In this document: in pieces, positions 860 to 37,324 of the stretch
Layout of the letters: each line of letters begins with the position of its first letter
Position numbering within the stretch: the first letter of the stretch is position 1
Source: an uncultured Acidobacteriota bacterium
GTDB taxonomy: Bacteria > Acidobacteriota > Thermoanaerobaculia > UBA5066
Direction of reading: 5' to 3'
Length of the DNA stretch: 37,324 nt
NCBI GenBank assembly: GCA_937888435.1
Contig: CALAQS010000356.1
Coordinates: forward strand, 1 to 37,324
Made by a program: the position numbers and the translations under genes
The notes under the pieces: generated by a model
What the model was told of the DNA's origin: nothing
Databases searched by the model: none
Seen by the model: only the letters and a program-made list of their open reading frames with translations

Positions 860-2497
860 CGCCGGCGTGAATGGCCAGGGCGGCGGGGGGAGCGCGAGCT
901 CCCGCTCGCGCCGGGCAAGGAGACGCGGCTGCGGGGAGCCCGTCCGGGCGATCTCCTCCTCGAGCGTGCCTCTCTGGTCGAAGTAGACATCGGCGATATA
1001 TGCGCGCTGGAGGACAAGAGAAGGGGAGAGAAACGAAATTTGCTTGGAAAGGAGAATACCGAGGGCTGCGTAGACGGCAGCGCCGCAAAGAAAAGCGAAC
1101 GCCGCCTTCGCCCTTGCGCTCCTCTTCTTCTCTTCCTTCTTCCCTTCTGAGAAAACCTTCCCTTCCCTTTTCCTGCCCAAGAAAAAATACGCTGCGACAC
1201 ACACGATCGCAGGCAGGGCGAAGCGCGCCGCCACCGGCGCGAAGAGATGCAGCACATTCGGTCCCGTCAGTCCCCTTTCGAAGAAAAACTCCGCGAACGA
1301 GCCCCAGGGCAACGCAAACCCGGGAGGGACAAATGGAAACGCGAGGGTCGTCGCGCAAACGGCGAGCGTCGAGGCCCCGACGAGCGTGCTCTCGAGAAAT
1401 CCCCCCTCTGAGAATGCAAACGGGAAAACGAGGAACGGCAGCGCCGCGACGAGATACCTCGGCCCCACCGTGAAGCCGCCGTGCCAGTTCGGGTAGCCCG
1501 CATAAAGAAGGAGGAGCGAGAGAGGGGCGAGCACGAGCGCGAGGCGGCTCCCAAAAGGCAAGGCGGGGCGGGACGAGAGAAATGCTCCGGGCCACAGCAG
1601 GAGAAACGGCGAGAAGACGAGAAGACCCTTCGACGGGTCCGCGAGCAGGCGAAGCGCGATTTCCGGAGACGGCAGAGAGATGCCGAAGAGGCCTGCCGAC
1701 GCAAGCGACCGGAAGAGAGGCGCGCGCTCGTGAGCGGAGGACACCTCGAAAACTCCCCCGAAGCAGGCGAGATCGTACGCGCCGAGAAGGGCGGCGAGGG
1801 GAGCACCTCCGGCCACGAGGGTGAGAAGTCGCCGGGGCGCGGGAATGACCGCGCAGAGGACGAGCACACCCGCGGGCACCGCCGCCGGGTACTCCGAGAT
1901 CACGGCGAGACCGAGGAGCGCGCCCGCAGCGCAATCGCGGCGGAACGAGCGCGAGGGATCTCCCGGGAAAAAGAGCGCGACCCAGCCGCCGAAGAGGCAC
2001 GCCGCCACGAGGGCGTGCGAAAAGAGAAGCAGGCCGTAGGCGAAAAGCGGCGTCGCGAACAGGAGCGCGAACGCCGCGCTCGCGGCGCGTGGAGGAGAAG
2101 CCCCGAAACGCACGGCCGCATGGAAGAGGACAAGTGCGAGGCACCCGGCGGGCAGCGTCGCGCCGAAGAGCCGCATCGCCCACAGGACCGGGCGCATCGA
2201 AGAAGCCGACGGAGAGCCCACGAATGGGCGTGCGAGTAGGTACCCCGGCAGCGCGACGAGCGTCGCGCCGGGCGCCTTGTTCGAGTAGACGCGCCCGTCC
2301 TTCTCCGAGACGTCTTCGAAGGCCGGTCCTAGGAGCGGCAGGACGGACGAAATCTCCGGCGTGCCGCGCTCGACGAGCGACGCGGCGAGCGCCCAGCGCG
2401 TGAATTCGTTCGGCGAGAGGAAGTGCGGGAAGATCGGCACGGCAAGAAGCGCCAGAAGGGCGTAGAGCCCTACCACGGCTCCGGACCTCGACCGCAT
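851..2497 (-). CDS. polytopic membrane protein, GT-C glycosyltransferase-like
   Basis: A 548-residue protein. The ATG at 2497 is chosen because it immediately precedes a hydrophobic N-terminal helix (VVGLYALLALLAVPIFP); residues upstream of it are charged and shadow queA on the other strand. Many hydrophobic segments follow through about residue 480, then a soluble basic and proline-rich tail. The first extracytoplasmic loop carries an acidic motif (SPNEFTRW), the position where GT-C enzymes such as ArnT/PMT carry their catalytic acid, but the motif alone does not prove activity. It probably uses a lipid-linked sugar donor if it is a transferase. It is convergent with the YfhO-like gene (9-bp overlap) and divergent from queA (39 bp between starts). 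No clear Shine-Dalgarno sequence precedes it. Specific substrate unknown. Confidence 0.65.
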   Translation of the reverse strand: MRSRSGAVVGLYALLALLAVPIFPHFLSPNEFTRWALAASLVERGTPEISSVLPLLGPAFEDVSEKDGRVYSNKAPGATLVALPGYLLARPFVGSPSASSMRPVLWAMRLFGATLPAGCLALVLFHAAVRFGASPPRAASAAFALLFATPLFAYGLLLFSHALVAACLFGGWVALFFPGDPSRSFRRDCAAGALLGLAVISEYPAAVPAGVLVLCAVIPAPRRLLTLVAGGAPLAALLGAYDLACFGGVFEVSSAHERAPLFRSLASAGLFGISLPSPEIALRLLADPSKGLLVFSPFLLLWPGAFLSSRPALPFGSRLALVLAPLSLLLLYAGYPNWHGGFTVGPRYLVAALPFLVFPFAFSEGGFLESTLVGASTLAVCATTLAFPFVPPGFALPWGSFAEFFFERGLTGPNVLHLFAPVAARFALPAIVCVAAYFFLGRKREGKVFSEGKKEEKKRSARAKAAFAFLCGAAVYAALGILLSKQISFLSPSLVLQRAYIADVYFDQRGTLEEEIARTGSPQPRLLARRERELALPPPPWPFTPASR

Positions 2498-2523
2498 CGC
2501 GGCAGTCTCGCACAGCGGCCGTG

Positions 2524-2529
2524 CAAAAT
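2524..2529 (+). promoter_or_regulatory. possible -10 hexamer (CAAAAT) for queA
   Basis: CAAAAT lies 7 nt before the ATG at 2537, matching the spacing of the clearer TANNNT-start arrangements elsewhere in the window, but the first base is not T. A small inverted repeat (GCAC at 2510-2513, GTGC at 2521-2524) sits in the same 39-bp divergent gap. Confidence 0.35.
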
Positions 2530-2536
2530 GCTCCGG

Positions 2537-3625
2537 ATGGACGTCGCGGATTTCGACTTCGTGCTGCCGCCCGAATCCATCGCCCAGCGGCCTGCGCCGC
2601 GTGGCACCGCGCGGCTGCTGACTCTCGACCGCCGGACGGGCGCGTTTACCCACCGGTCCGTCGCCGACATCCCGTCGCTTCTCCACCCGGGCTACGTCCT
2701 CGTCCTGAACGACACGAAAGTCATCCCGGCGCGGATTTTCGGGACGGACGAGAAAGGGAGGAGGACGGAGCTCCTCCTGGTTTCGAAGATTCCGGAGATT
2801 TCGACGATTTCGGATTTTTCTTCGAAAGAGAAAACGGAGCACTGGCGCTGCCTCGCGAAGCCGGGAAAGCGGGTGAAGGCCGCGAGGATGTTCTTCTTCG
2901 AAGGGGGTTGGGAGGCGGAGCCAGCTGCCGCTCGCACCGAAGGAGGCCTTTATGTGCTCCGGTTCGAAAAACTCGGGAGCAGAACGTCTTCACTCCTGGA
3001 CGATCTCGCCTCCCTCGGCTCCGCTCCCTTGCCGCCGTACATCCACCGCCCCGGCGGCGTCGCGGACGCGCAAGACGCAATCGATTACCAGACCGTCTTC
3101 GCGGATAGCCCCGGCGCGATTGCGGCGCCGACCGCTGGCCTCCACTTCACCCAGGAGCTGCTCGCCGCCGTCGCCGCGCGGGGCATCGAGATCGCGCGCG
3201 TGACGCTGCACGTCGGCCTCGGCACGTTCAAACCCGTGAAAGTCGATCGCGTCGAAGACCACCGCCTGGATCTCGAGCGGGCGGAGATCCCCGCGGACAC
3301 CGCCGAACGCGTGAACCGGGCGAAACGCGAAGGACGTCGCGTCGTCGCGGTCGGCACGACGACCGTGCGCACGCTCGAAGCGTCGGCTCGCGCGCACGGC
3401 GGCGCCGTAGCCGCCGGCGCGTTCGAGACGGACCTCTTCCTCGTGCCGGGCGCGGCGTTTCACGTCGTGGACGCGCTCCTGACGAACTTCCACCTGCCCC
3501 GCTCGACACTCCTCATGCTCGTCTCGGCGTTCGCCGGGCGTGAGCGCGTCCTCGCCGCCTACCAAGAGGCGGTCGCGCAGCGCTACCGCTTCTTCAGCTA
3601 CGGCGACGCGATGTTCATTTCGTGA
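2537..3625 (+). CDS. queA: S-adenosylmethionine:tRNA ribosyltransferase-isomerase
   Basis: QueA transfers and isomerises the ribosyl moiety of SAM onto 7-aminomethyl-7-deazaguanine at tRNA position 34, the step giving epoxyqueuosine in queuosine synthesis. The 362-residue protein shows the family hallmarks: N-terminal DFDFxLPxxxIAQxP, LNDTKVIPARIFG, the PTAGLHFT motif, HVGLGTFKPV, and a C-terminal LLTNFHLPRSTLLMLVSAFAG followed by FFSYGDAM. The ATG at 2537 gives the family's usual N-terminus (M-x3-DFDF); an in-frame ATG at 2528 would add three residues. In many bacteria queA is followed by tgt; here it is not, so the rest of the pathway must lie elsewhere. An insertion-like variable segment around residues 80-140 is rich in charged and Phe residues. 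Identification is secure. Confidence 0.95.
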   Translation: MDVADFDFVLPPESIAQRPAPRGTARLLTLDRRTGAFTHRSVADIPSLLHPGYVLVLNDTKVIPARIFGTDEKGRRTELLLVSKIPEISTISDFSSKEKTEHWRCLAKPGKRVKAARMFFFEGGWEAEPAAARTEGGLYVLRFEKLGSRTSSLLDDLASLGSAPLPPYIHRPGGVADAQDAIDYQTVFADSPGAIAAPTAGLHFTQELLAAVAARGIEIARVTLHVGLGTFKPVKVDRVEDHRLDLERAEIPADTAERVNRAKREGRRVVAVGTTTVRTLEASARAHGGAVAAGAFETDLFLVPGAAFHVVDALLTNFHLPRSTLLMLVSAFAGRERVLAAYQEAVAQRYRFFSYGDAMFIS

Positions 3626-3667
3626 CGGCATGAGGCGGCCGAGGCTGCACCCGCGGCGCGGCGGCAC

Positions 3668-3718
3668 TACATTATGAAAGGGCCCGGTCCGGCCGAGGGC
3701 CGGTCGGCCAAGGGGAGG
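3668..3718 (+). promoter_or_regulatory. leader of the cytidylate-kinase-like gene: possible -10, hairpin and strong SD
   Basis: The gap holds a possible -10 (TACATT, 3668-3673), an inverted repeat GGCCGA (3691-3696)/TCGGCC (3704-3709), and a near-consensus Shine-Dalgarno AGGGGAGG (3711-3718) 5 nt before the ATG at 3724. The hairpin abuts the SD and could modulate its access; no specific regulator is suggested by the sequence. Confidence 0.4.
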
Positions 3719-3723
3719 CTGTC

Positions 3724-4419
3724 ATGACCTCGACGCTTCCCGGTGTGGAACTTGCGGACCGCCAGGGCCGCTTCACGGAAATGCGCCGGCGCGCGACGGA
3801 AGGCCCGCCCGCTGGGCCAGCGCAGGCCGAAGGGCCCTGGATCGCGCTATCGCGCGAGCTCGGAGCGGGAGGCGGCGAGCTCGCGATCCAGCTCGGCGCT
3901 GCGCTCGGCTGGCGCATCTACGATCGCGAGATCCTCCAGGCGGTAGCGGCCGAAGAGCGGCGCGACGAGTGGACCCTCGAGCGCTTCGACGAAAAAGGCG
4001 TGCGCGCGTTCGGCGAATACATCGCGCCGCTCATCATTCCGGCCGACCCCGGACAGTCTCGTTACCTCGTCGATCTGACGCGCGTCGTCCGGCGGCTGGG
4101 GTGCGAGGGCCACGCGGTGCTCGTGGGACGCGGTGCGAACTTCATCCTGGATCCCACACGCGGGCTTCGCGTCCGAGCCGTGGCCCCGGCCGCAGACCGC
4201 GCCAAGGCGCTCGCGCACGACCTGGGCCTCGCGCCCGACAAAGCGCGCCGCCGCATCGCGGCGAGCGACGCGGCGCAGCGGGACTTCGTGTGGCAGGCCT
4301 TCCAGAGGGAGATCGAGGATCCGGCGGGTTACGACCTCGTCGTCCACCCTCGCGCACTCGGCCTGCCCGCGGCGGTGGCGGCGATCCTCGCCGCCGCACG
4401 CGCGAAGCTCGACTTCTGA
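3724..4419 (+). CDS. cytidylate kinase-like family protein
   Basis: A 231-residue protein of the cytidylate-kinase-like P-loop group (Pfam Cytidylate_kin_2 / AAA_26). Visible signature: SRELGAGGGELAIQLGAALGW followed by RIYDREIL (residues about 39-70), in which the usual P-loop is replaced by the family's GAGG(G) loop; then GHAVLVGRGANFIL and an Arg-rich RxRAVAPxxDRAKAL lid-like segment. Members are thought to be nucleotide or small-molecule kinases, but the substrate is not established, so CMP kinase activity should not be assumed. The start is set by a strong SD (AGGGGAGG, 5-nt spacer). The first 30 residues are polar and probably disordered. The gene stands alone between queA and the convergent glnA. 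Confidence 0.8.
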   Translation: MTSTLPGVELADRQGRFTEMRRRATEGPPAGPAQAEGPWIALSRELGAGGGELAIQLGAALGWRIYDREILQAVAAEERRDEWTLERFDEKGVRAFGEYIAPLIIPADPGQSRYLVDLTRVVRRLGCEGHAVLVGRGANFILDPTRGLRVRAVAPAADRAKALAHDLGLAPDKARRRIAASDAAQRDFVWQAFQREIEDPAGYDLVVHPRALGLPAAVAAILAAARAKLDF

Positions 4420-4455
4420 ACCGCGGCCTCACGAACAGGCGCCGAAGGCCGTCGG

Positions 4456-4485
4456 GGGCGGGAACGAGCTTCTGTCGTCCCGCCC
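4456..4485. terminator. GC-rich hairpin between convergent genes, likely bidirectional terminator
   Basis: GGGCGGGA (4456-4463) pairs perfectly with TCCCGCCC (4478-4485); CGA/TCG inside extends the stem past a one-base bulge. It lies between the stop at 4419 (+) and the stop at 4500 (-). There is no clear U tract, so termination is inferred from position and stem strength. Confidence 0.5.
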
Positions 4486-4499
4486 TCAACGCGCTCGGC

Positions 4500-5927
4500 T
4501 CAGATGTCGTAGTACATCGCGAACTCCCACGGATGCGGCCGCAGGCGGATCGCATCGACCTCGTTCTTGCGCTTGTACTCGATCCAGGTCTCGATGAGAT
4601 CCTTCGTGAAAACGTCGCCTTTGAGCAGCCAGTCGTGCGACTTCTCGAGATTGTCGAGGACGACGTCGAGCGAGCCCGGGAGCTGCTTGATCTTCTTCGC
4701 CTCGGCCTCGGGCAGCTCGTAGAGGTCCTTGTCGACCGGTTTGCCCGGATCGATCTTGTGCGCGACGCCGTCGAGGCCGGCCATGAGGCACGCCGCGAAT
4801 GACAGGTACGGGTTGCACGTGGGGTCGGGCGTGCGGAATTCGATGCGCTTGGCACCTTCGCTCTTGCTGTACATCGGGATGCGGATGCACGCCGAGCGGT
4901 TCCGCTGGCTGTAGACGAGGTTGATCGGCGCCTCGTAGCCGGGCACGAGCCGCTTGTAGGAGTTCGTGGACGGCGCGATGAGGGCGAGAAGCGCGGGCGC
5001 GTGCTTGAGGATGCCGCCGATGTACCAGCGGCACATGTCCGAGATGTCGGCGTACGGGCTGCCCTTCTTGTAGAAGAGGTTCTTGCCGTTCTTCCAGAGC
5101 GACTGGTGCGTGTGCATGCCCGAGCCGTTGTCCTGGAAGAGCGGTTTCGGCATGAAGGTGGCGCTCTTGCCGTTCCGGTACGCCGTCTGCTTCGCGCAGT
5201 ACTTGTACCAGCAGACGCTGTCGGCCATCTTCGTGAGCGTTCCGAACCGCATGTCGATTTCGGTCTGACCCGCGGTCGCGACCTCGTGGTGGTGCACCTC
5301 GACGCGGATGCCGACGGATTGCAGCGCGAGGACCATCTCCGAGCGCAGGTCCTGGAAGTGGTCCATCGGCGGGACCGGGAAGTAGCCCTGCTTGTAGCGC
5401 ACCTTGTAGCCTTGGTTCGGCTGCTCGGGCGTGCTCTTTTTGCCCGCGTTCCAGAAGCCCGCCTCGGAGTCGATGAAGTAGAAGCCGCTGTGCGTATTCT
5501 GGTCGAAGCGCACGCTGTCGAAGAAGAAAAACTCGAGCTCGGGCCCGATGAAGATCGTGTCCGCGAGGCCCGTCTTCTTCAGGTAGCTTTCGGCCTTTTT
5601 CGCGACGTGCCGCGGGTCGCGCGAATACCATTCGCCCGTGACGGGATCCTTCACGTCACAGATGACGACGAGCGTGGGATGCTGCGTGAAGGGGTCCATG
5701 ACGGCCGTCGTCGGGTCGGGAATGAGCAGCATGTCGGACTCGTCGATCGACTGGAAACCGCGAATCGACGAGCCGTCGAACCCGAGCCCGTCCGTAAAGA
5801 TGTCTTCGGACAGCTCCGAGATCGGGATCGAGAAATGCTGCCAGAGGCCCGGCAGGTCGATGAAGCGTAGATCGACGAACTGCGCGCCCTTGTCTTTTGC
5901 GAATTTCAGAACTTCCTTTGGAGTCAT
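4500..5927 (-). CDS. glnA: glutamine synthetase type I, beta-subtype (adenylylatable)
   Basis: Catalyses ATP-dependent glutamate + ammonia to glutamine as a cytoplasmic dodecamer. The 475-residue length and motifs are those of GSI-beta: FDGSSIRGF near residue 50, [12 protein letters not shown] at 127-137, [14 protein letters not shown] at 212-225, [19 protein letters not shown] (259-277), and NRSACIRIP. Tyr403 lies in [14 protein letters not shown], the position of the Tyr modified by GlnE adenylyltransferase in enteric GSI-beta, so covalent regulation is likely if GlnE is present. The ATG at 5927 is preceded by GGGAGG. It follows the second glutamine synthetase by only 17 bp and must be co-transcribed with it. 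The two enzymes belong to different subtypes, so this is not a recent duplication. Identification is secure; the adenylylation claim rests on motif conservation. Confidence 0.96.
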
Positions 5928-30976: not shown

Positions 30977-32775
30977 CCTCGCCGCCCGAATCGCCTCTCG
31001 AGCTCCTCGTGCGAAAAAGAGAGGAGGATGGGCCGCCCGTGCGGGCACGTCCAGGGATCGCGGCAAGCGGCGAGGTCCGCGAGGAGCCGCGCAGCCTCGG
31101 CCGGAGCGAGCCGGTGGTTCACCGTGATCGCGCCGCGGCAGGCGAGCGATGCGGCGAGAACCTCGCGCCTGAGCACGGGCGAGGACGCCGAGCCCTCGGG
31201 CAGCGCCGCGAGGCGCGCGAGGGTGTCGCGGAGCGCGGGGAGGACCGAGGAGACCGGCATCTCGGGCGGCGTGGCCGAGACGAGAAACGTCCGACCCGAG
31301 AGCTCCGAAACTACGAAACCCGCTTCGGCGAGGAAGTCGTCCGACCGCGAGAGAAGCGTCGCTTCGTCCGGCGTCGCCTCGAACGTCACCGGCGTCAGGA
31401 GACTCTGCGAGGAGACCTCCGACGTCTCGAGCCTCTCGAGGAATCTCTCGTACCTCACGCGCTCGTGCGCGACGTGCTGGTCGATGAGAACCAGGCCCTC
31501 CTCGCCTTCGGCCACGAGGAACGAATCGCGGTACTGGCCGAGGAGGCGGATTGGGCCGAGAGGGGAAGAAGAAAGAGAAGAAGAGATTTCTTCTGAATAG
31601 GAAGAGGGAGAGAGGCCGGGTGCGATCGCTTCGAGCAGCGTTCCGGCGCCCGCGCCGCCGCCCGCGCCGTAGCGAACCGCCCCCTCGCCGAGCGCCGACC
31701 TCCCGCCCTGTCCGGGCACCCATTCATAGGAATCTCTTCCCCTTCCGCCTCCGAGTGCCTCCCCTTCGACCGCCACCGCGCCCTTTCCCCCCGTGAGAGC
31801 GCCGACGAGACCGCGGTGGACGAGCGCGTGCACGCTGGCGGGGTCGCGGAAGCGGACCTCCAGCTTCTGCGGGTGCACGTTCACGTCGCAGAGGTCCGGA
31901 GCGCAGGTCAGAAACAGGGCGAATCCCGCGTGGCGGTCCGAGCGGAGCACCTCGCGCGTCGCGAGCGCGATGGCATGCGCCACGGTCGCGTCCCTGATGG
32001 TGCGGCCGTTCACGAAGAACCACTGGTGCGCCCGGGACGGAAACGTCGTGTCCGGCCGCGTGACGGCGCCCGTGAGCGTCATGCCGCTGAACGCGAAGTC
32101 TACGTCGCACGGGGGCGCCGGGGCCGCGAGGCCGAGGACCTCGCGGAACCGCGCCGCCACGCCGTCCACGGCGGGCAGGTCGAGGAGGAGCCGCGGCCCC
32201 GCGCGCAGCGTGAACGCCACGTCCGGGCGAGAGAGTGCGAGCGCCGTGACCGCCTTCACGACCGCCCGCAGCTCGGCCTCTGCGCTCTTCAGGAACTTGC
32301 GGCGCGCCGGAACGTTTCCGAAGAGGTCCTCGACGACGACGCGCGTCCCCTTCGGGTGCCGCGCGGGCGAAACACGCGGGGGTGCGCTCCTTTCGGCGAC
32401 GACCTCGGTCCCGAGGCCGGACTCGTCCGGCGACGTCGTGAGGACGAGGCGCGAGACGGATGCGATCGAGGGCAGCGCCTCGCCGCGAAAGCCCATCGTG
32501 CCGATCGAGGTCAGGTCCTGGAACGTTCGGATCTTGGAAGTCGCATGCCGCTCGAGGGCCAGCCGCGCGTCCTCCGGAGACATCCCCGAGCCGTCGTCCA
32601 CGACCTCGAGCCGCGCGACGCCGCCGCTCTCCACGTCGACCGAGATGCGCCGCGCGCCGGCATCGAGCGCGTTCTCCACGAGCTCCTTGACGGCGGACGC
32701 CGGGCGCTCCACGACCTCGCCCGCGGCGATCTGGTCGACGAGCGCCTCGGAGAGAACACGGACGAGTCCCGACAC
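30973..32775 (-). CDS. mutL: DNA mismatch repair protein MutL (endonuclease type)
   Basis: A 600-residue MutL. The GHKL ATPase N-terminus has ELVENALDAG (31-40), DDGSGM (60-65), the ATP-lid RHATSKI (76-82) and GFRGEALPSIASV; DVNVHPQKLEVRF (297-309) follows. A Gly/Ser-rich linker (330-405) leads to the dimerisation/endonuclease domain with DQHVAHERVRYE (432-443), matching the DQHA-x2-E-x4-E metal motif of MutL nucleases except for Val in place of Ala; ACRGAI (546-551) and CPHGRP (577-582) complete the site. It therefore should nick DNA itself, as in bacteria lacking MutH. GTG at 32775 fits the TAACAT-7 nt arrangement. mutS is not adjacent; rhomboid-like gene follows by 4-bp overlap. Confidence 0.95.
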   Translation of the reverse strand: MSGLVRVLSEALVDQIAAGEVVERPASAVKELVENALDAGARRISVDVESGGVARLEVVDDGSGMSPEDARLALERHATSKIRTFQDLTSIGTMGFRGEALPSIASVSRLVLTTSPDESGLGTEVVAERSAPPRVSPARHPKGTRVVVEDLFGNVPARRKFLKSAEAELRAVVKAVTALALSRPDVAFTLRAGPRLLLDLPAVDGVAARFREVLGLAAPAPPCDVDFAFSGMTLTGAVTRPDTTFPSRAHQWFFVNGRTIRDATVAHAIALATREVLRSDRHAGFALFLTCAPDLCDVNVHPQKLEVRFRDPASVHALVHRGLVGALTGGKGAVAVEGEALGGGRGRDSYEWVPGQGGRSALGEGAVRYGAGGGAGAGTLLEAIAPGLSPSSYSEEISSSLSSSPLGPIRLLGQYRDSFLVAEGEEGLVLIDQHVAHERVRYERFLERLETSEVSSQSLLTPVTFEATPDEATLLSRSDDFLAEAGFVVSELSGRTFLVSATPPEMPVSSVLPALRDTLARLAALPEGSASSPVLRREVLAASLACRGAITVNHRLAPAEAARLLADLAACRDPWTCPHGRPILLSFSHEELERRFGRRG

Positions 32776-32782
32776 GCCCGGG

Positions 32783-32788
32783 ATGTTA
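32783..32788 (-). promoter_or_regulatory. -10 (TAACAT) of a probably leaderless mutL transcript
   Basis: On the minus strand GTCGCTAACAT is followed by 7 nt and the GTG at 32775; the same 11-mer precedes the gene at 15911. Confidence 0.5.
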
Positions 32789-32810
32789 GCGACTTCGGGG
32801 CACGTCGCGT

Positions 32811-34205
32811 TCAGTGAACCGCCATCGCCTTTTCCACGTCCGCGATCTCCCGCGGAGCCTCGCACGACAGGCACTCCGGCCCTTTTTCCGTGACGAGGAC
32901 GTCGTCCTCGATCCTGACGCCGATGTTCCACCACTTCGGGTCGACGCCCTCGCTTTTCGCTGGGATGTAAATGCCGGGCTCGACCGTGAGGACCATCCCG
33001 GGGCGAAGCGTCGCGTTCGACGAGAAGTAGCGCGTCCAGCGGTCCGTCGGATCTCCGAACTCGTAGCTGCCGGCGTCGTGGACGTCGAGCCCGAGCCAGT
33101 GCGAGACGCCGTGGGGGAAGAACGCGGCGAACGAGCGAGAGGTCTTCACCTCCTCGCGCGTGCCCTTCAGGAGGCCGAGCTTCAGTAGCCCGTCCACGAT
33201 GACCTCGTACGCGGCGTCCTGGATGTCATGGTGCCTCGCCCCGGGCACCGCCTTCGCGATCCCGGCCTTCTGCGCCGCGAGGACGATCGCGTAGAGCGCA
33301 CGCTGTTCGGGCGAGAACGTGCCGCTCACGGGATAGCTTCGGGTCACGTCCGCGGCATACAAACCGTACTCGCACGCCGTGTCGTTCACGATCATCTCCC
33401 CGGCGAGCATCGTGCGATTCGCGTCAGGGTAATGGAGGATGACGGAGTTCGGCCCCGACCCCACGATCGGCGCGTAGGCCATGCGCGCGGAGCCGCCCGC
33501 GAGACAGCGCTCGACCATGACGGCCTTGAGGACGCCTTCGTTCAGGCCGGGGCGCGCGCGCGTCAGCGCGGCGCGGTGGGCCTCGACCGAAAGCCTCACC
33601 GCCTCACGCAGGGTCGCGATCTCCGCCGCGTCCTTCACGAAACGCATCTGTCCGAGGAGCGGCGCGACGTCGAGCGCGGGGAGCGGCTCGGGGCCTGCGG
33701 CCGCGAGCGCCTGCCAGGCCGACACGAGCTTCTCGCGGAAGTCCTTGTCGCGCGCGTCGGCGTAATAGAGAGCCTTCGCCCCCGCGAGAAGCGCCCGGGA
33801 CTCCTTCTGGAAGTCGGCCATTGGATACGCCGCGTCCGCCCGGAATTCCGACTTCGCGCCTTCGACGCCGGCGCGGCGTCCCGTCCACCGCTCCTCGGCC
33901 CAGCTCTTCGGCTTGACGAACAGCGTGTAGCGCTTTCCTTCCAAGGCGCCTGGCCGGAAGACCGCGATCGCGTCCGGCTCGGAAAAGCCAGTGAGATACC
34001 AGAAGTTCGAGTCCGGCCGGTAGGCATCGAGGAGATCCTCGGATTCCGACGGGGCGCGCAGGACCACGACCGCGTCCGGCGGCAGCTTCGCGGCGAGCGC
34101 CGCGCGATGCGACGCGAACCAGTCCGGGCCCGGCGCGGGCGGCCCGGCCGAGGCGAGCGCGGACGAGCAGGCGGCAAGAGCGACGAGGAGCGTCAGGATG
34201 CGCAT
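32811..34205 (-). CDS. exported Xaa-Pro aminopeptidase (M24B)
   Basis: A 464-residue metallopeptidase that removes N-terminal residues preceding proline. A signal peptide or lipoprotein-like leader (RILTLLVALAACSSALASAG) indicates export; most PepP enzymes are cytoplasmic, so this is a periplasmic variant. The N-terminal creatinase-like domain has DSNFWYLTGFSEPDAI. Metal ligands of the pita-bread fold are visible: Asp in CEYGLYAADVTRSYP (two Asp sites with NDTACEYG), His in PHGVSHWLGLDVHD, Glu in VLTVEPGIYIP and Glu in IGVRIEDDVLV. The C-terminus is SCEAPREIADVEKAMAVH. The ATG at 34205 has GGAGGT upstream. It is divergent from the toxin-antitoxin operon. Confidence 0.92.
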   Translation of the reverse strand: MRILTLLVALAACSSALASAGPPAPGPDWFASHRAALAAKLPPDAVVVLRAPSESEDLLDAYRPDSNFWYLTGFSEPDAIAVFRPGALEGKRYTLFVKPKSWAEERWTGRRAGVEGAKSEFRADAAYPMADFQKESRALLAGAKALYYADARDKDFREKLVSAWQALAAAGPEPLPALDVAPLLGQMRFVKDAAEIATLREAVRLSVEAHRAALTRARPGLNEGVLKAVMVERCLAGGSARMAYAPIVGSGPNSVILHYPDANRTMLAGEMIVNDTACEYGLYAADVTRSYPVSGTFSPEQRALYAIVLAAQKAGIAKAVPGARHHDIQDAAYEVIVDGLLKLGLLKGTREEVKTSRSFAAFFPHGVSHWLGLDVHDAGSYEFGDPTDRWTRYFSSNATLRPGMVLTVEPGIYIPAKSEGVDPKWWNIGVRIEDDVLVTEKGPECLSCEAPREIADVEKAMAVH

Positions 34206-34225
34206 GAGACCTCCGAGGGGACGGA

Positions 34226-34231
34226 AGTGTA
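34226..34231 (-). promoter_or_regulatory. possible -10 (TACACT) for the aminopeptidase gene
   Basis: TACACT on the minus strand, 20 nt upstream of the ATG at 34205, with the SD between. The facing -35 of the toxin-antitoxin operon is 26 bp away. Confidence 0.4.
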
Positions 34232-34257
34232 GCGGCAGAGGGAATGTCAGGGAGCCC

Positions 34258-34303
34258 TTGACGGCCGCCCGGTTCGACACGTACCGTATTCCTGTACAGG
34301 AGG
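34258..34303 (+). promoter_or_regulatory. promoter and likely autoregulatory operator of the toxin-antitoxin operon
   Basis: TTGACG (34258-34263) is separated by 18 nt from TACCGT (34282-34287). Two GTAC-centred motifs overlap the -10 and start site: CGTACC (34280-34285) and a perfect TGTACA (34293-34298), centres 13 bp apart. E. coli YefM-YoeB represses its operon by binding paired TGTACA palindromes. SD AGGAGGAG follows from about 34298 before the GTG at 34311. Confidence 0.6.
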
Positions 34304-34310
34304 AGCGAGC

Positions 34311-34601
34311 GTGCCCACCAGCGAAACGACATACACCTACGCACGAGCGAACTTCGCCGCCATCTGCGACGCGGTGGCTTCCTCCAGGCAGGCGGTCGTC
34401 ATCCGGCGTCGCGGCGCCCACGACGTGGCGCTCGTCGCGGCCGACGAGCTACGGAGCCTCATGGAAACGGCTCATCTCCTCCGATCTCCGAAGAACGCCG
34501 AGCGCCTTCTGCGCGCACTGGGGCGCGCGCGGCATCGCAGTGGCTCGCCGCGATCGGTCGCGACCCTCCGACGGGAACTGGGGCTTGGCGGCACCCGCTG
34601 A
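34311..34601 (+). CDS. yefM: Phd/YefM-family antitoxin
   Basis: A 96-residue protein. The N-terminus (TTYTYARANFAAICDAVASSRQAVVIRRRG) followed by HDVALVAADELRSLMETAHLLRSPKNAERLL is the Phd/YefM fold: an N-terminal DNA-binding and dimerisation part and a flexible C-terminus that wraps the toxin. The linker region ETAHLLRSP matches the usual YefM ETxYLLxSP pattern. The C-terminal 25 residues are Arg-rich, longer than typical YefM (about 83 residues). GTG at 34311 has a strong AGGAGG. It is followed 13 bp later by the YoeB toxin; the operator upstream suggests autoregulation. Confidence 0.88.
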   Translation: MPTSETTYTYARANFAAICDAVASSRQAVVIRRRGAHDVALVAADELRSLMETAHLLRSPKNAERLLRALGRARHRSGSPRSVATLRRELGLGGTR

Positions 34602-34614
34602 CGCGGGTTCGCCC

Positions 34615-34881
34615 GTGAAAGGCCGCCGCGAAGCTGTCTTCCAGAAGGAGTTCTTCGAAGACCTGAGGTTCTGGGTCGACACGAACCGCCGCGTCGCCCT
34701 TCGGGCCCTCGACCTCATCGAGGCGATTCTGCGCGACCCTTTCCAGGGTCTCGGGAAGCCGGAGCCCCTGAAGTACCTCGGCCCCGGAGTCTGGTCACGT
34801 CGCCTCACGGAGGAGCACCGAGTCGTCTACCTGGTCAGCCACGACCGCGTCGATTTCCTCCAGGCCCGGTACCACTACTGA
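34615..34881 (+). CDS. yoeB: YoeB/Txe-family mRNA interferase toxin
   Basis: An 88-residue RelE-superfamily endoribonuclease that cuts mRNA in the ribosomal A site. Conserved features: FQKEFFEDLRFWVDTNRR, DPFQGLGKPEPLKYLGPG with Glu50 at the YoeB Glu46 position, WSRRLTEEHRVVYLV with Arg69 (Arg65 equivalent), and the terminal RYHY carrying His87-Tyr88 (catalytic His83/Tyr84 in E. coli). All catalytic residues are present, so it is probably active. GTG at 34615 gives the usual N-terminus; an in-frame TTG at 34585 inside the antitoxin gene is an alternative. No own SD is clear, which fits low, coupled translation. Confidence 0.9.
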   Translation: MKGRREAVFQKEFFEDLRFWVDTNRRVALRALDLIEAILRDPFQGLGKPEPLKYLGPGVWSRRLTEEHRVVYLVSHDRVDFLQARYHY

Positions 34882-34929
34882 TCTGGTGGCGTTGAACCCT
34901 TCCCGCCTCCATTGGCGATTCCCTCTGCC

Positions 34930-36741
34930 CTATTTCCTATCACCGAGATACCCGGAGCGCTGGTTTTCCTCCCACGTCTCCCGGGTCGTCGGCCAGGGAT
35001 TCATGACCGCAAGGTCAAGGACGCTCTCAAGCAGCCGAACGAGCGGTCGTTTGCCGACGTGCTTTTCATCGAATTCGTGCCCACGGTTGGCAAGCATCCG
35101 GGAAACGAGGACGCTGAGGAGCTTGCGTTTCGGAAGATCGAAGTCGAGCTTCGTGCGATACAGACCGCTCAAGGGGTCGCCGCTCCCGACCCGATGCGCT
35201 GCCCTGCATGCGGCGAGTTCCTCCGGCGCAAAAACGTACCGGCCCTCGGACACGGCGGAGAGCGCCTCGGCGAGCTCAGCATCGCTGAAATTGTCGAATT
35301 CGATCGACTGCTCCCATACACGAATGTAGTCGTCCTTCGTCACCCTCCTTTCTGGGAACAGCTTTGATGGTGCGTTGACAAGATTCCGTTTCACCTGCGC
35401 AACGCGATCTTCGTTGTCCAAGATGAGGTACACGACCGTCTGACGGTGGTGGTGATCGTCGATGAATTTCTCCAGGGCACCGTACTTGTCGCGACGCTTC
35501 TGCCCCGTGAACTCGCCCACACCACCGAGGCCCCTGATCTCGATGCCGACCGATGAGGGTTTACACCCGAGCAGCTCCTCGAAGAGGCGAGGAATCTCTC
35601 GTTCCTCTCCGTTTCCCTCGACAAGGAGGATCAACTTGGGGCGGGGATTCAGGTTGTAATTGTTGACGACCAGCTCAAGGTGGCGGAGGGGGTCGTCGAT
35701 GACGCCGGTGCCGTAGTAGCTCTCGCGCGTCCAATCGTCGCCCTCGCCGGGCGGATGGAGCTTCGTGTCCGTCAGCTCTCCGTAGAACATGCGCAGCATG
35801 TGCTCCGACGCGTACAGCGTTTGCGCATACCGAGCATCGCGTTTGAGGCGCCTTCGCTCGTCTATGTTGACGAACGCGACGAGGTCGTACCAGGACTCTA
35901 GGGGGTCAGCGAATGCGGCATTCCCCGCGATGCGACGCTGGAGATCCTTCACGTCCTCGGTGCTGATCCCCATCCGCACAAGGATGGACTTCCCGTCCCA
36001 ACGCCGCACAAATTCGTGCCAGTCCCATTCGGGCCATCTCATTGGGACACTCAGGGTGAAAGTACGGCGGTCTGTCTGCGTCGGCGGATAAAACCGGTTC
36101 GACAGCAACTGGAGGATGAAGGCTTCAGCATCGTCGTAGGGATGTTCTTGGGCCGACGCCACGATGCGCTTTGCGCGGTCGGCGATTCTCGTCGCAACCC
36201 GGCCGAGTGCGTCTGCGTCTGCTGCCGCGAAGTCTTCGAGATGAATCTGAGGTGTAAACGGCTGCAGTATCCAGCGGAGATCGCGAATCTGGAACGAAGA
36301 GTAAAACGCGTCTTCGACGTTCCTGTGATGCGGGTCGCGGGAATTGGAGTCCCACGGCTCGAATGGCCGAGTCGCCGGGTGCCACAGATGACCGCCGTCG
36401 AGAAACCATGAGGCGCTCTGCGGCTCAAAAGAAAAATCCGCGTATCCTTCCTCGATTGCGCCGGCCCAGGCTTCCCCCTCAGCGAGGACGCCAAGGGATT
36501 TCGTTCGACCGTTGACGTCGATCTCGACCTTCGTGCGAATCCTGGGACGACGCAGCCGGGCGAAGGGACGGAAGATCCCGAGCCGCTCAAAGGCTTCGAG
36601 GCGATCAACGGAGATGTCGAGTCCTCGCTCCTCGCAGAACCTCGCGAAGGCGTTCGCATCGAGGAGCGGACAGATGACGCCGCTGTCGTTTGTGACAAGG
36701 TAACAGAGGCGTTCTGCCGGAGTGAGCTTCAGTTCGATCAC
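34930..36741 (-). CDS. uncharacterised protein with TOPRIM-like domain, possible defence nuclease
   Basis: A 603-residue soluble protein I cannot place in a named family. N-terminal residues about 27-66 (NAFARFCEERGLDISVDRLEAF then ERLGIFRPFARLR) resemble a MerR-like helix-turn-helix. A long middle region (70-350) has Trp- and His-rich stretches (WPEWDWHEFVRRW; QEHPYDDAEAFILQLL) without recognisable motifs. Residues about 368-450 look like TOPRIM: PKLILLVEGNGEEREIPRLFEEL (Glu375), IEIRGLGGVGEF, and VVYLILDNED (Asp442-Asp445), as in OLD-type TOPRIM nucleases. The C-terminus is helical. GTG at 36741 is chosen from TACGCT 6 nt upstream; an earlier in-frame GTG at 36828 would add 29 basic residues. 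GC is lower than neighbours. No adjacent ATPase is seen. Confidence 0.7.
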   Translation of the reverse strand: MIELKLTPAERLCYLVTNDSGVICPLLDANAFARFCEERGLDISVDRLEAFERLGIFRPFARLRRPRIRTKVEIDVNGRTKSLGVLAEGEAWAGAIEEGYADFSFEPQSASWFLDGGHLWHPATRPFEPWDSNSRDPHHRNVEDAFYSSFQIRDLRWILQPFTPQIHLEDFAAADADALGRVATRIADRAKRIVASAQEHPYDDAEAFILQLLSNRFYPPTQTDRRTFTLSVPMRWPEWDWHEFVRRWDGKSILVRMGISTEDVKDLQRRIAGNAAFADPLESWYDLVAFVNIDERRRLKRDARYAQTLYASEHMLRMFYGELTDTKLHPPGEGDDWTRESYYGTGVIDDPLRHLELVVNNYNLNPRPKLILLVEGNGEEREIPRLFEELLGCKPSSVGIEIRGLGGVGEFTGQKRRDKYGALEKFIDDHHHRQTVVYLILDNEDRVAQVKRNLVNAPSKLFPERRVTKDDYIRVWEQSIEFDNFSDAELAEALSAVSEGRYVFAPEELAACRAAHRVGSGDPLSGLYRTKLDFDLPKRKLLSVLVSRMLANRGHEFDEKHVGKRPLVRLLESVLDLAVMNPWPTTRETWEENQRSGYLGDRK

Positions 36742-36747
36742 GACGAC

Positions 36748-36753
36748 AGCGTA
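36748..36753 (-). promoter_or_regulatory. possible -10 (TACGCT) of the TOPRIM gene
   Basis: On the minus strand TACGCT, GTCGTC, then GTG at 36741: the same 6-nt spacing as other genes here. An overlapping TTATAC adds some ambiguity. Confidence 0.4.
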
Positions 36754-36866
36754 TAAGGCTGCGCGCCTAATCTCCAAGTCGAGTCGAACTCGGCGCTTCG
36801 GGGGACCTGGCTCGGCACGGGTGGTCACCGCAGACTCCGCTACACGGGCGCGTTAACCCAACCGCT

Positions 36867-37135
36867 CTAGGCGAAGTGCCCCTGCTGAACGAAGGCGAGG
36901 CCGGCGGCGGAGAGCCGAAAAGCTAGCGTGACCTTCTTCGCCTCGACGATGCCGAGGAGCTGCCAGCCCACGACCAGGGCGTAGTCGGCAGGGCCGTTCT
37001 CTGTCGGGTCTCCGCGATCGCCTGGCCGGAGAGGCCCGCGATCGGAAGTCCTTCCTTGAAATCGACCACCTTCCAGCCAGCGGCCTTCAGCTTCGGGTCG
37101 ACGCGATCCCGGCGGGTCTGGCGTTCAGACTCCAC
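36867..37135 (-). pseudogene. hsdR: remnant of a type I restriction HsdR subunit, frameshifted and truncated
   Basis: From GTG at 37135 the minus strand reads SERQTRRDRVDPKLKAAGWK then VVDFKEGLPIAGLSGQAIAE, the usual N-terminus of HsdR-like proteins. Near 37008 the reading must shift by one base to continue DPTENGPADYALVVGWQLLG then IVEAKK, which is the PD-(D/E)xK nuclease motif of HsdR (Asp in ADYAL, Glu-x-Lys in EAK). After EAKK the sequence loses similarity and ends at a TAG (36867-36869). A working HsdR is about 1000 residues, so only the first tenth survives. No hsdM or hsdS is in the window. Recognition of the motif is good; the frameshift could be a sequencing error but the truncation cannot. 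Confidence 0.75.
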
Positions 37136-37212
37136 GGACAGCTCCGGAAGATGACTTCGCGACGTCCACGGTGTACGTCAATGATAGAGGCTGGCCGGCC
37201 CCGCTCTTGCCT

Positions 37213-37324
37213 TCAGAGCTTCCGATGCCGGAACGGACGGGCGTCTTTCCCGCTGTACGTCGCCACGACCTGGCCGCTGCCCCTGAGCAGGTATTTGTAC
37301 GTGACGAGCCCGTCGAGGCCCACG
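37213..37324 (-). CDS. partial hypothetical protein, C-terminal end only
   Basis: A minus-strand frame open to the right edge ends at TGA 37213-37215. The 36 visible residues ([20 protein letters not shown] then [15 protein letters not shown]) look like real coding sequence, beta-rich then a basic tail. No family can be assigned from this length. The 77 bp between it and the HsdR remnant hold nothing I recognise. Confidence 0.4.

Follow-up and report, generated by a model that had tools for sequence, protein, structure and literature searches.

A putative restriction-linked TOPRIM effector that carries no ATPase, and its relatives with HEPN-like ends

The stretch of DNA analysed here (37,324 nucleotides, referred to below as the window) comes from an uncultured Acidobacteriota bacterium and carries near its end the gene of a TOPRIM protein, located on the minus strand at 34930..36741. 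As proposed in the initial annotation, this is an intact open reading frame, of 603 amino acids, and the codon-position pattern marks it as coding sequence; translation is taken to begin at the GTG at 36741, and another GTG further upstream (36828) is a possible alternative start giving a longer protein. The low G+C content noticed before was also found, with 60.1% in the gene versus 67.3% in the window. The gene's own genome yielded one copy only, and relatives share 23-45% identity with the protein over most of its length.

The gene belongs to an islet of about 2.96 kb (34253..37216, ends approximate), which two congeners (L049 and L050) lack. The window segments flanking it, 31485-34244 and 37217-37324, directly abut each other in L049 and lie 56 bp apart in L050, and the flanking genes are pepP (Xaa-Pro aminopeptidase) and proA, within which the contig stops at 37324. 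Insertion in the genome of the window is a simpler reading of this pattern than loss in the congeners. Inspection of 100 bases at each islet end detected neither a direct repeat of 7 bp nor an inverted repeat of 8 bp or more. Besides the TOPRIM gene, the islet holds the two neighbours that had previously been described as a toxin-antitoxin pair and a broken restriction gene, and both can now be named. The pair is YefM-YoeB, composed of a YefM/Phd-type antitoxin gene (34311..34601, plus strand; PF02604, E 8e-16) and a YoeB toxin gene (34615..34881, plus strand; PF06769, E 7e-33; TIGR02116), and it is convergent to the TOPRIM gene. Upstream of the TOPRIM gene and co-directional with it lies a decayed fragment of the N-terminus of hsdR of a Type I restriction system (36867..37135, minus strand), which has broken frames and gave tblastn matches at 4e-8 to 52 plasmid records annotated as hsdR or DEAD/DEAH helicase.

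Residues 363-586 of the protein (34984..35655, minus strand) form a predicted TOPRIM nuclease domain of the Class 2 OLD/Gabija type. The Pfam family OLD-like_TOPRIM (PF20469) matched the window protein alone weakly (E 0.0029, 18.6 bits, under the cut-off of 23.2), and it matched a relative (L009, about 22% identity) above the cut-off, at E 1.2e-6 and 29.4 bits. The best PADLOC match was the TOPRIM part of GajA (E 1.5e-4). An AlphaFold model of the protein, built from four sequences, is of low confidence overall (mean pLDDT 56), with values mostly of 74-95 in the C-terminal domain. When the predicted residues 363-586 were compared with known structures, the C-termini of Class 2 OLD proteins ranked first (Z 12.0, 11.2, 10.8 and 10.8), followed by GajA (9.6), PARIS (7.0) and Retron-Eco2 (6.9); the best E value of a Foldseek search with the domain model was 4.6e-4. 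The match of Z 12.0, to 6nk8, extends across residues 366-579 and thus covers the TOPRIM core and the helical domain that follows it. Pfam, PADLOC, the predicted fold and the active-site residues described below all agree with the TOPRIM motif set read from the sequence in the initial annotation, and the core which that reading called for is present in the prediction.

The active site of Class 2 OLD proteins, as described for Bp OLD, consists of E400, E404, D455, D457, T506, E508 and K562 (PMC6755086), and the matching positions of the window protein are E375, E379, D442, E444, S479, E481 and K538. All of these are invariant among the TOPRIM relatives except position 479, which is S, N, T or D. 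The TOPRIM glutamate E375 (35617..35619) is the counterpart of E400, and D442-N443-E444 (35410..35418), a DxD-type motif here in the form DxE, that of D455/D457. S479-I480-E481 (35299..35307) probably provides ligands of the second metal and K538 (35128..35130) is the probable catalytic lysine; their pairing with T506/E508 and K562 is based on their order and on where they lie within the helical subdomain, rather than on a residue-level structural alignment. All four elements are on the minus strand. In the Gabija protein of a Paenibacillus plasmid an S-D-G-E segment, compared by eye, also has DxE in place of DxD.

The C-terminal TOPRIM and helical domain with its matching active-site residues is common to the window protein, Class 2 OLD and GajA. 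The window protein has no ATPase domain, and so does not have the N-terminal ABC-type ATPase of whole OLD nucleases, nor is there an adjacent UvrD-like helicase gene. Gabija pairs an ATPase-bearing GajA with an adjacent GajB helicase, whereas the neighbours here are YefM-YoeB and the hsdR remnant. PARIS AriB is likewise a TOPRIM nuclease, acting in response to anti-restriction (PMC12839542), but it is paired with the ATPase AriA, and no ATPase gene adjoins the window gene. As noted previously, an ATPase is neither fused nor adjacent: Pfam at an E limit of 10 found no ATPase family in the protein, and none of the intact loci read, the window and L007 among them, has an adjacent ATPase gene. The premise that the known TOPRIM proteins of defence invariably come with an ATPase, in fusion or as a partner, did not hold, since Retron-Eco2 is a fusion of reverse transcriptase and TOPRIM (PMC12405507) and HEPN/Toprim-NTD1 has been described in fusion with TOPRIM (PMC3710099). 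The Retron-Eco2 effector is, in parallel, an OLD-like TOPRIM domain fused behind another domain and controlled without an ATPase, and it is an RNase that becomes toxic once freed (PMC12405507); unlike it, the window protein has no reverse transcriptase domain that Pfam could find.

The partner could instead be an OLD-type ATPase encoded at another, unlinked place in the genome, as in a PARIS or Gabija system whose components were separated, and the ranking of OLD, GajA and PARIS domains as the nearest structural matches is in favour of that. The contig of L009 also encodes an OLD-type ATPase, but its gene overlaps a DUF3226 TOPRIM-like gene in a PARIS-like pair, followed by a gene of a TIR-ankyrin protein (1655-5674 for the set), so that this ATPase is already paired with a TOPRIM of its own. 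Moreover, the family proteins have a long N-terminal part of their own, common to relatives with another C-terminus, the loci contain no adjacent ATPase gene and the Retron-Eco2 TOPRIM works without one. We consider the unlinked partner very unlikely.

The N-terminal part of the protein, residues 1-172 (36226..36741, minus strand), is the proposed sensor. The N-termini scanned with Pfam at an E limit of 10 gave no match and no HTH or MerR family, which does not bear out the MerR-like N-terminus suggested earlier; the model of the window protein is unreliable there (pLDDT about 25-45). In the scans carried out, no model of Pfam, NCBIfam, PADLOC or PHROG matched the domain, and a PDB sequence search returned nothing useful for it. 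The structural match lists had none for this region either, where the models are too weak for absence to count. Membership in PF18871 (HEPN_Toprim_N) was considered and rejected: hmmscan found no match to it in the protein or in the window's genome, and a comparison of profiles between a PF18871 protein and the family showed no N-terminal similarity.

Relatives ending in TOPRIM were found in L007, a Candidatus Binatia MAG (about 45% identity), in L008, of the same class, in the above-mentioned L009, of the same phylum, and in L013/L020 (about 35%). Within the member in L008 (9503-12584) sits an inserted segment with a DDE_3 transposase, which splits the gene. Profile searches added L015/L021, L017/L022 and L034/L038, whose alignment was confined to the N-terminal part, and the profile-profile comparison of the TOPRIM group with the L015/L017/L034 group matched residues 23-172 with a probability of 95.9 (E 5.1e-9) and no region further on. 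These three proteins keep the conserved N-terminal part and have a HEPN-like domain in place of TOPRIM. All three C-termini contain the motif R-N-[YF]-x-x-H, to be compared with the R-x4-6-H motif of the HEPN superfamily, and the domain of this group is modelled as helical, with pLDDT of about 71-90 over most of residues 421-550. The two best structural matches of this model were HepT chains, which are HEPN RNases, of the MntA-HepT toxin-antitoxin complex (Z 6.7 over 108-113 residues; for helical bundles such values may arise by chance). Pfam gave no HEPN match for these ends, and judging from the short motif and the modest structural match they are likely HEPN domains. Three other matches were dropped: L004 (short, with an internal stop), L030 (28 residues within another protein) and L018 (a DUF4276 TOPRIM adjoining an ATPase gene).

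The family was found in about 1% of the genomes searched, with intact or IS-split copies in 3 of 396 and 4 of 345, and its distribution is patchy and often marked by decay. No relatives were detected in IMG/VR scans, phage searches or plasmid searches, the last of which matched a Gabija protein in its TOPRIM segment and nothing else. A cellular enzyme of nucleic-acid processing or repair, with no part in defence and located beside restriction-modification (RM) genes by chance, might be suspected, as RNase M5 and DnaG primase are examples of housekeeping enzymes that contain TOPRIM (PMC6755086) and two family genes (L038 and L020) lie among housekeeping genes. We give little credence to that role: the family is rare and patchy, it has decayed in several genomes, two congeners lack it and its genes overlap RM genes in an operon-like manner, all of which speaks against it.

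The overlap is seen in L007, whose long TOPRIM reading frame overlaps at its start with a Type ISP gene, and in L022, where a IIG enzyme of the Eco57I/TaqI_C type overlaps the family gene by 1 bp; in L021 a Type ISP-like IIG enzyme is encoded about 200 bp upstream. Together with the window, an RM gene or its remnant is therefore located directly upstream on the same strand in four of the eight intact or near-intact members. The L009 contig contains hsdM in addition to its ATPase/TOPRIM pair and the TIR-ankyrin protein. All three remnants of the family (L023, L024 and L039) lie near RM or methyltransferase genes. In L023 the remnant follows a IIG enzyme and an AIPR gene. In L039 (6037-15615) a DUF1156 methyltransferase and a DUF499 gene, an anti-phage-associated set, flank a decayed copy of the N-terminus, which comes after the methyltransferase. 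In L024 (8772-9924) a short N-terminal remnant, not far from a Type ISP gene, has next to it a SIR2-like gene that may be another exchanged effector. With a few RM loci per 4-Mb genome, the chance of one occurring within 10 kb would be, by a rough estimate, a few percent. Defence genes around homologues, which the initial annotation had proposed to survey, were found at part of the loci: no RM gene was present within the sequence fetched for L038 and L020, and none was recognised near L008, whose neighbours are only partly annotated.

A rival reading is a direct restriction component, a DNA nuclease that would attack invading DNA jointly with the methyltransferase or restriction enzyme encoded next to it; its N-terminus would serve for docking or for reading DNA, and the cell would not commit suicide. 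The direct overlap of family genes with Type ISP and IIG genes suits this possibility, but these enzymes already carry a nuclease of their own. The HEPN-like end of the relatives points to RNA, and the window gene is still intact after the decay of its RM neighbour. Although Class 2 OLD TOPRIM domains do cut DNA in vitro (PMC6755086), we regard the direct role as rather unlikely.

Our preferred reading is that the window protein is a putative RM-linked abortive-infection effector of two parts, a sensor domain and an exchangeable nuclease, and we assign to it a probability of roughly 0.58. Its basis is the predicted nuclease fold, the conserved active site, the shared N-terminus, the co-directional RM neighbours and the presence or absence of the islet among congeners, from which we infer a role in defence as well as the sensing, the inhibition, the target and the abortive outcome. 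The N-terminal part, whose conservation spans residues 23-172 and which is followed by a stretch with no assigned domain up to about residue 360, would sense infection or the state of the partner RM enzyme and would keep the C-terminal nuclease inactive. Blocking or overrunning of the RM enzyme would release the nuclease, which would then cut nucleic acid of the host or of the phage through two-metal chemistry at E375, E379, D442, E444 and E481, upon which growth would stop. RNA seems a slightly more likely target than DNA, because in relatives the place of TOPRIM is taken by a HEPN-like RNase; the substrate of the window nuclease could be DNA too, given what Class 2 OLD domains cut. The intactness of the TOPRIM gene despite decay of its RM partner we also count against the RM-linked reading: the gene may now act alone or with another partner, or may be a relic that is still intact.

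A scheme of two parts has been put forward for AbiJ-NTD, HEPN/Toprim-NTD1 and proteins like them, in which the N-terminal domain recognises infection and the enzymatic end kills or arrests the cell (PMC3710099), and the architecture and context of the present family appear to fit it. HEPN/Toprim-NTD1 (PF18871; Anantharaman et al. 2013, PMC3710099) likewise joins one N-terminal domain to TOPRIM or HEPN ends and was proposed to combine sensor and effector, but the N-terminal domain of the window family is a different one. PrrC and RloC are back-up nucleases often encoded in RM operons (PMC3710099), as here, but they are fusions of an ABC-ATPase with HEPN, whereas the window nuclease is a TOPRIM behind a different N-terminal domain. 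Suicidal effectors in a backup role have also been reported next to BREX and DUF499 systems, in the form of TOPRIM/OLD and HEPN nucleases (PMC12839542). More tentatively, and with somewhat less than even odds, we suggest that across the family the N-terminal sensor guards Type ISP/IIG and related modification systems, while the killing end is swapped between a Class 2 OLD-type TOPRIM and a HEPN-like RNase, making an ATPase-free second line that fires when restriction fails.

The family probably represents a kind of anti-virus protein not described before, with predicted exchangeable killing ends, since its front part is common to proteins with a different cutter and is often encoded beside restriction genes. 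The undescribed defence effector suspected at first has gained strength from the Class 2 OLD domain, the islet absent from two congeners, the RM neighbours and the exchangeable ends. The word undescribed applies to the N-terminal domain and not to the architecture, as both TOPRIM without an ATPase and the exchange of TOPRIM and HEPN on one N-terminal domain are already known. The apparent novelties are the N-terminal domain of the family and the association of this domain with Type ISP/IIG and related modification systems, and we found no paper describing the TOPRIM/HEPN-like family in the open-licence literature. If the reading is right, the modular suicide proteins serving as a backup to restriction-modification gain a new sensor module, and the family offers a compact ATPase-free protein for studying how TOPRIM nucleases are restrained and released, together with an N-terminal profile usable for finding further proteins of this kind.

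Two other loci with TOPRIM-like genes were observed. At L025 (8737-10613) an AAA_21 ATPase gene overlaps a DUF4276 TOPRIM-like gene in a PARIS-like arrangement. At L042 (G121:C9:239190-239858; locus 1501-2817) a 438-residue protein composed of HEPN_Toprim_N (PF18871) and a TOPRIM-like part is encoded between carA-like and carB-like genes, and it is another ATPase-free TOPRIM protein in the phylum of the window.
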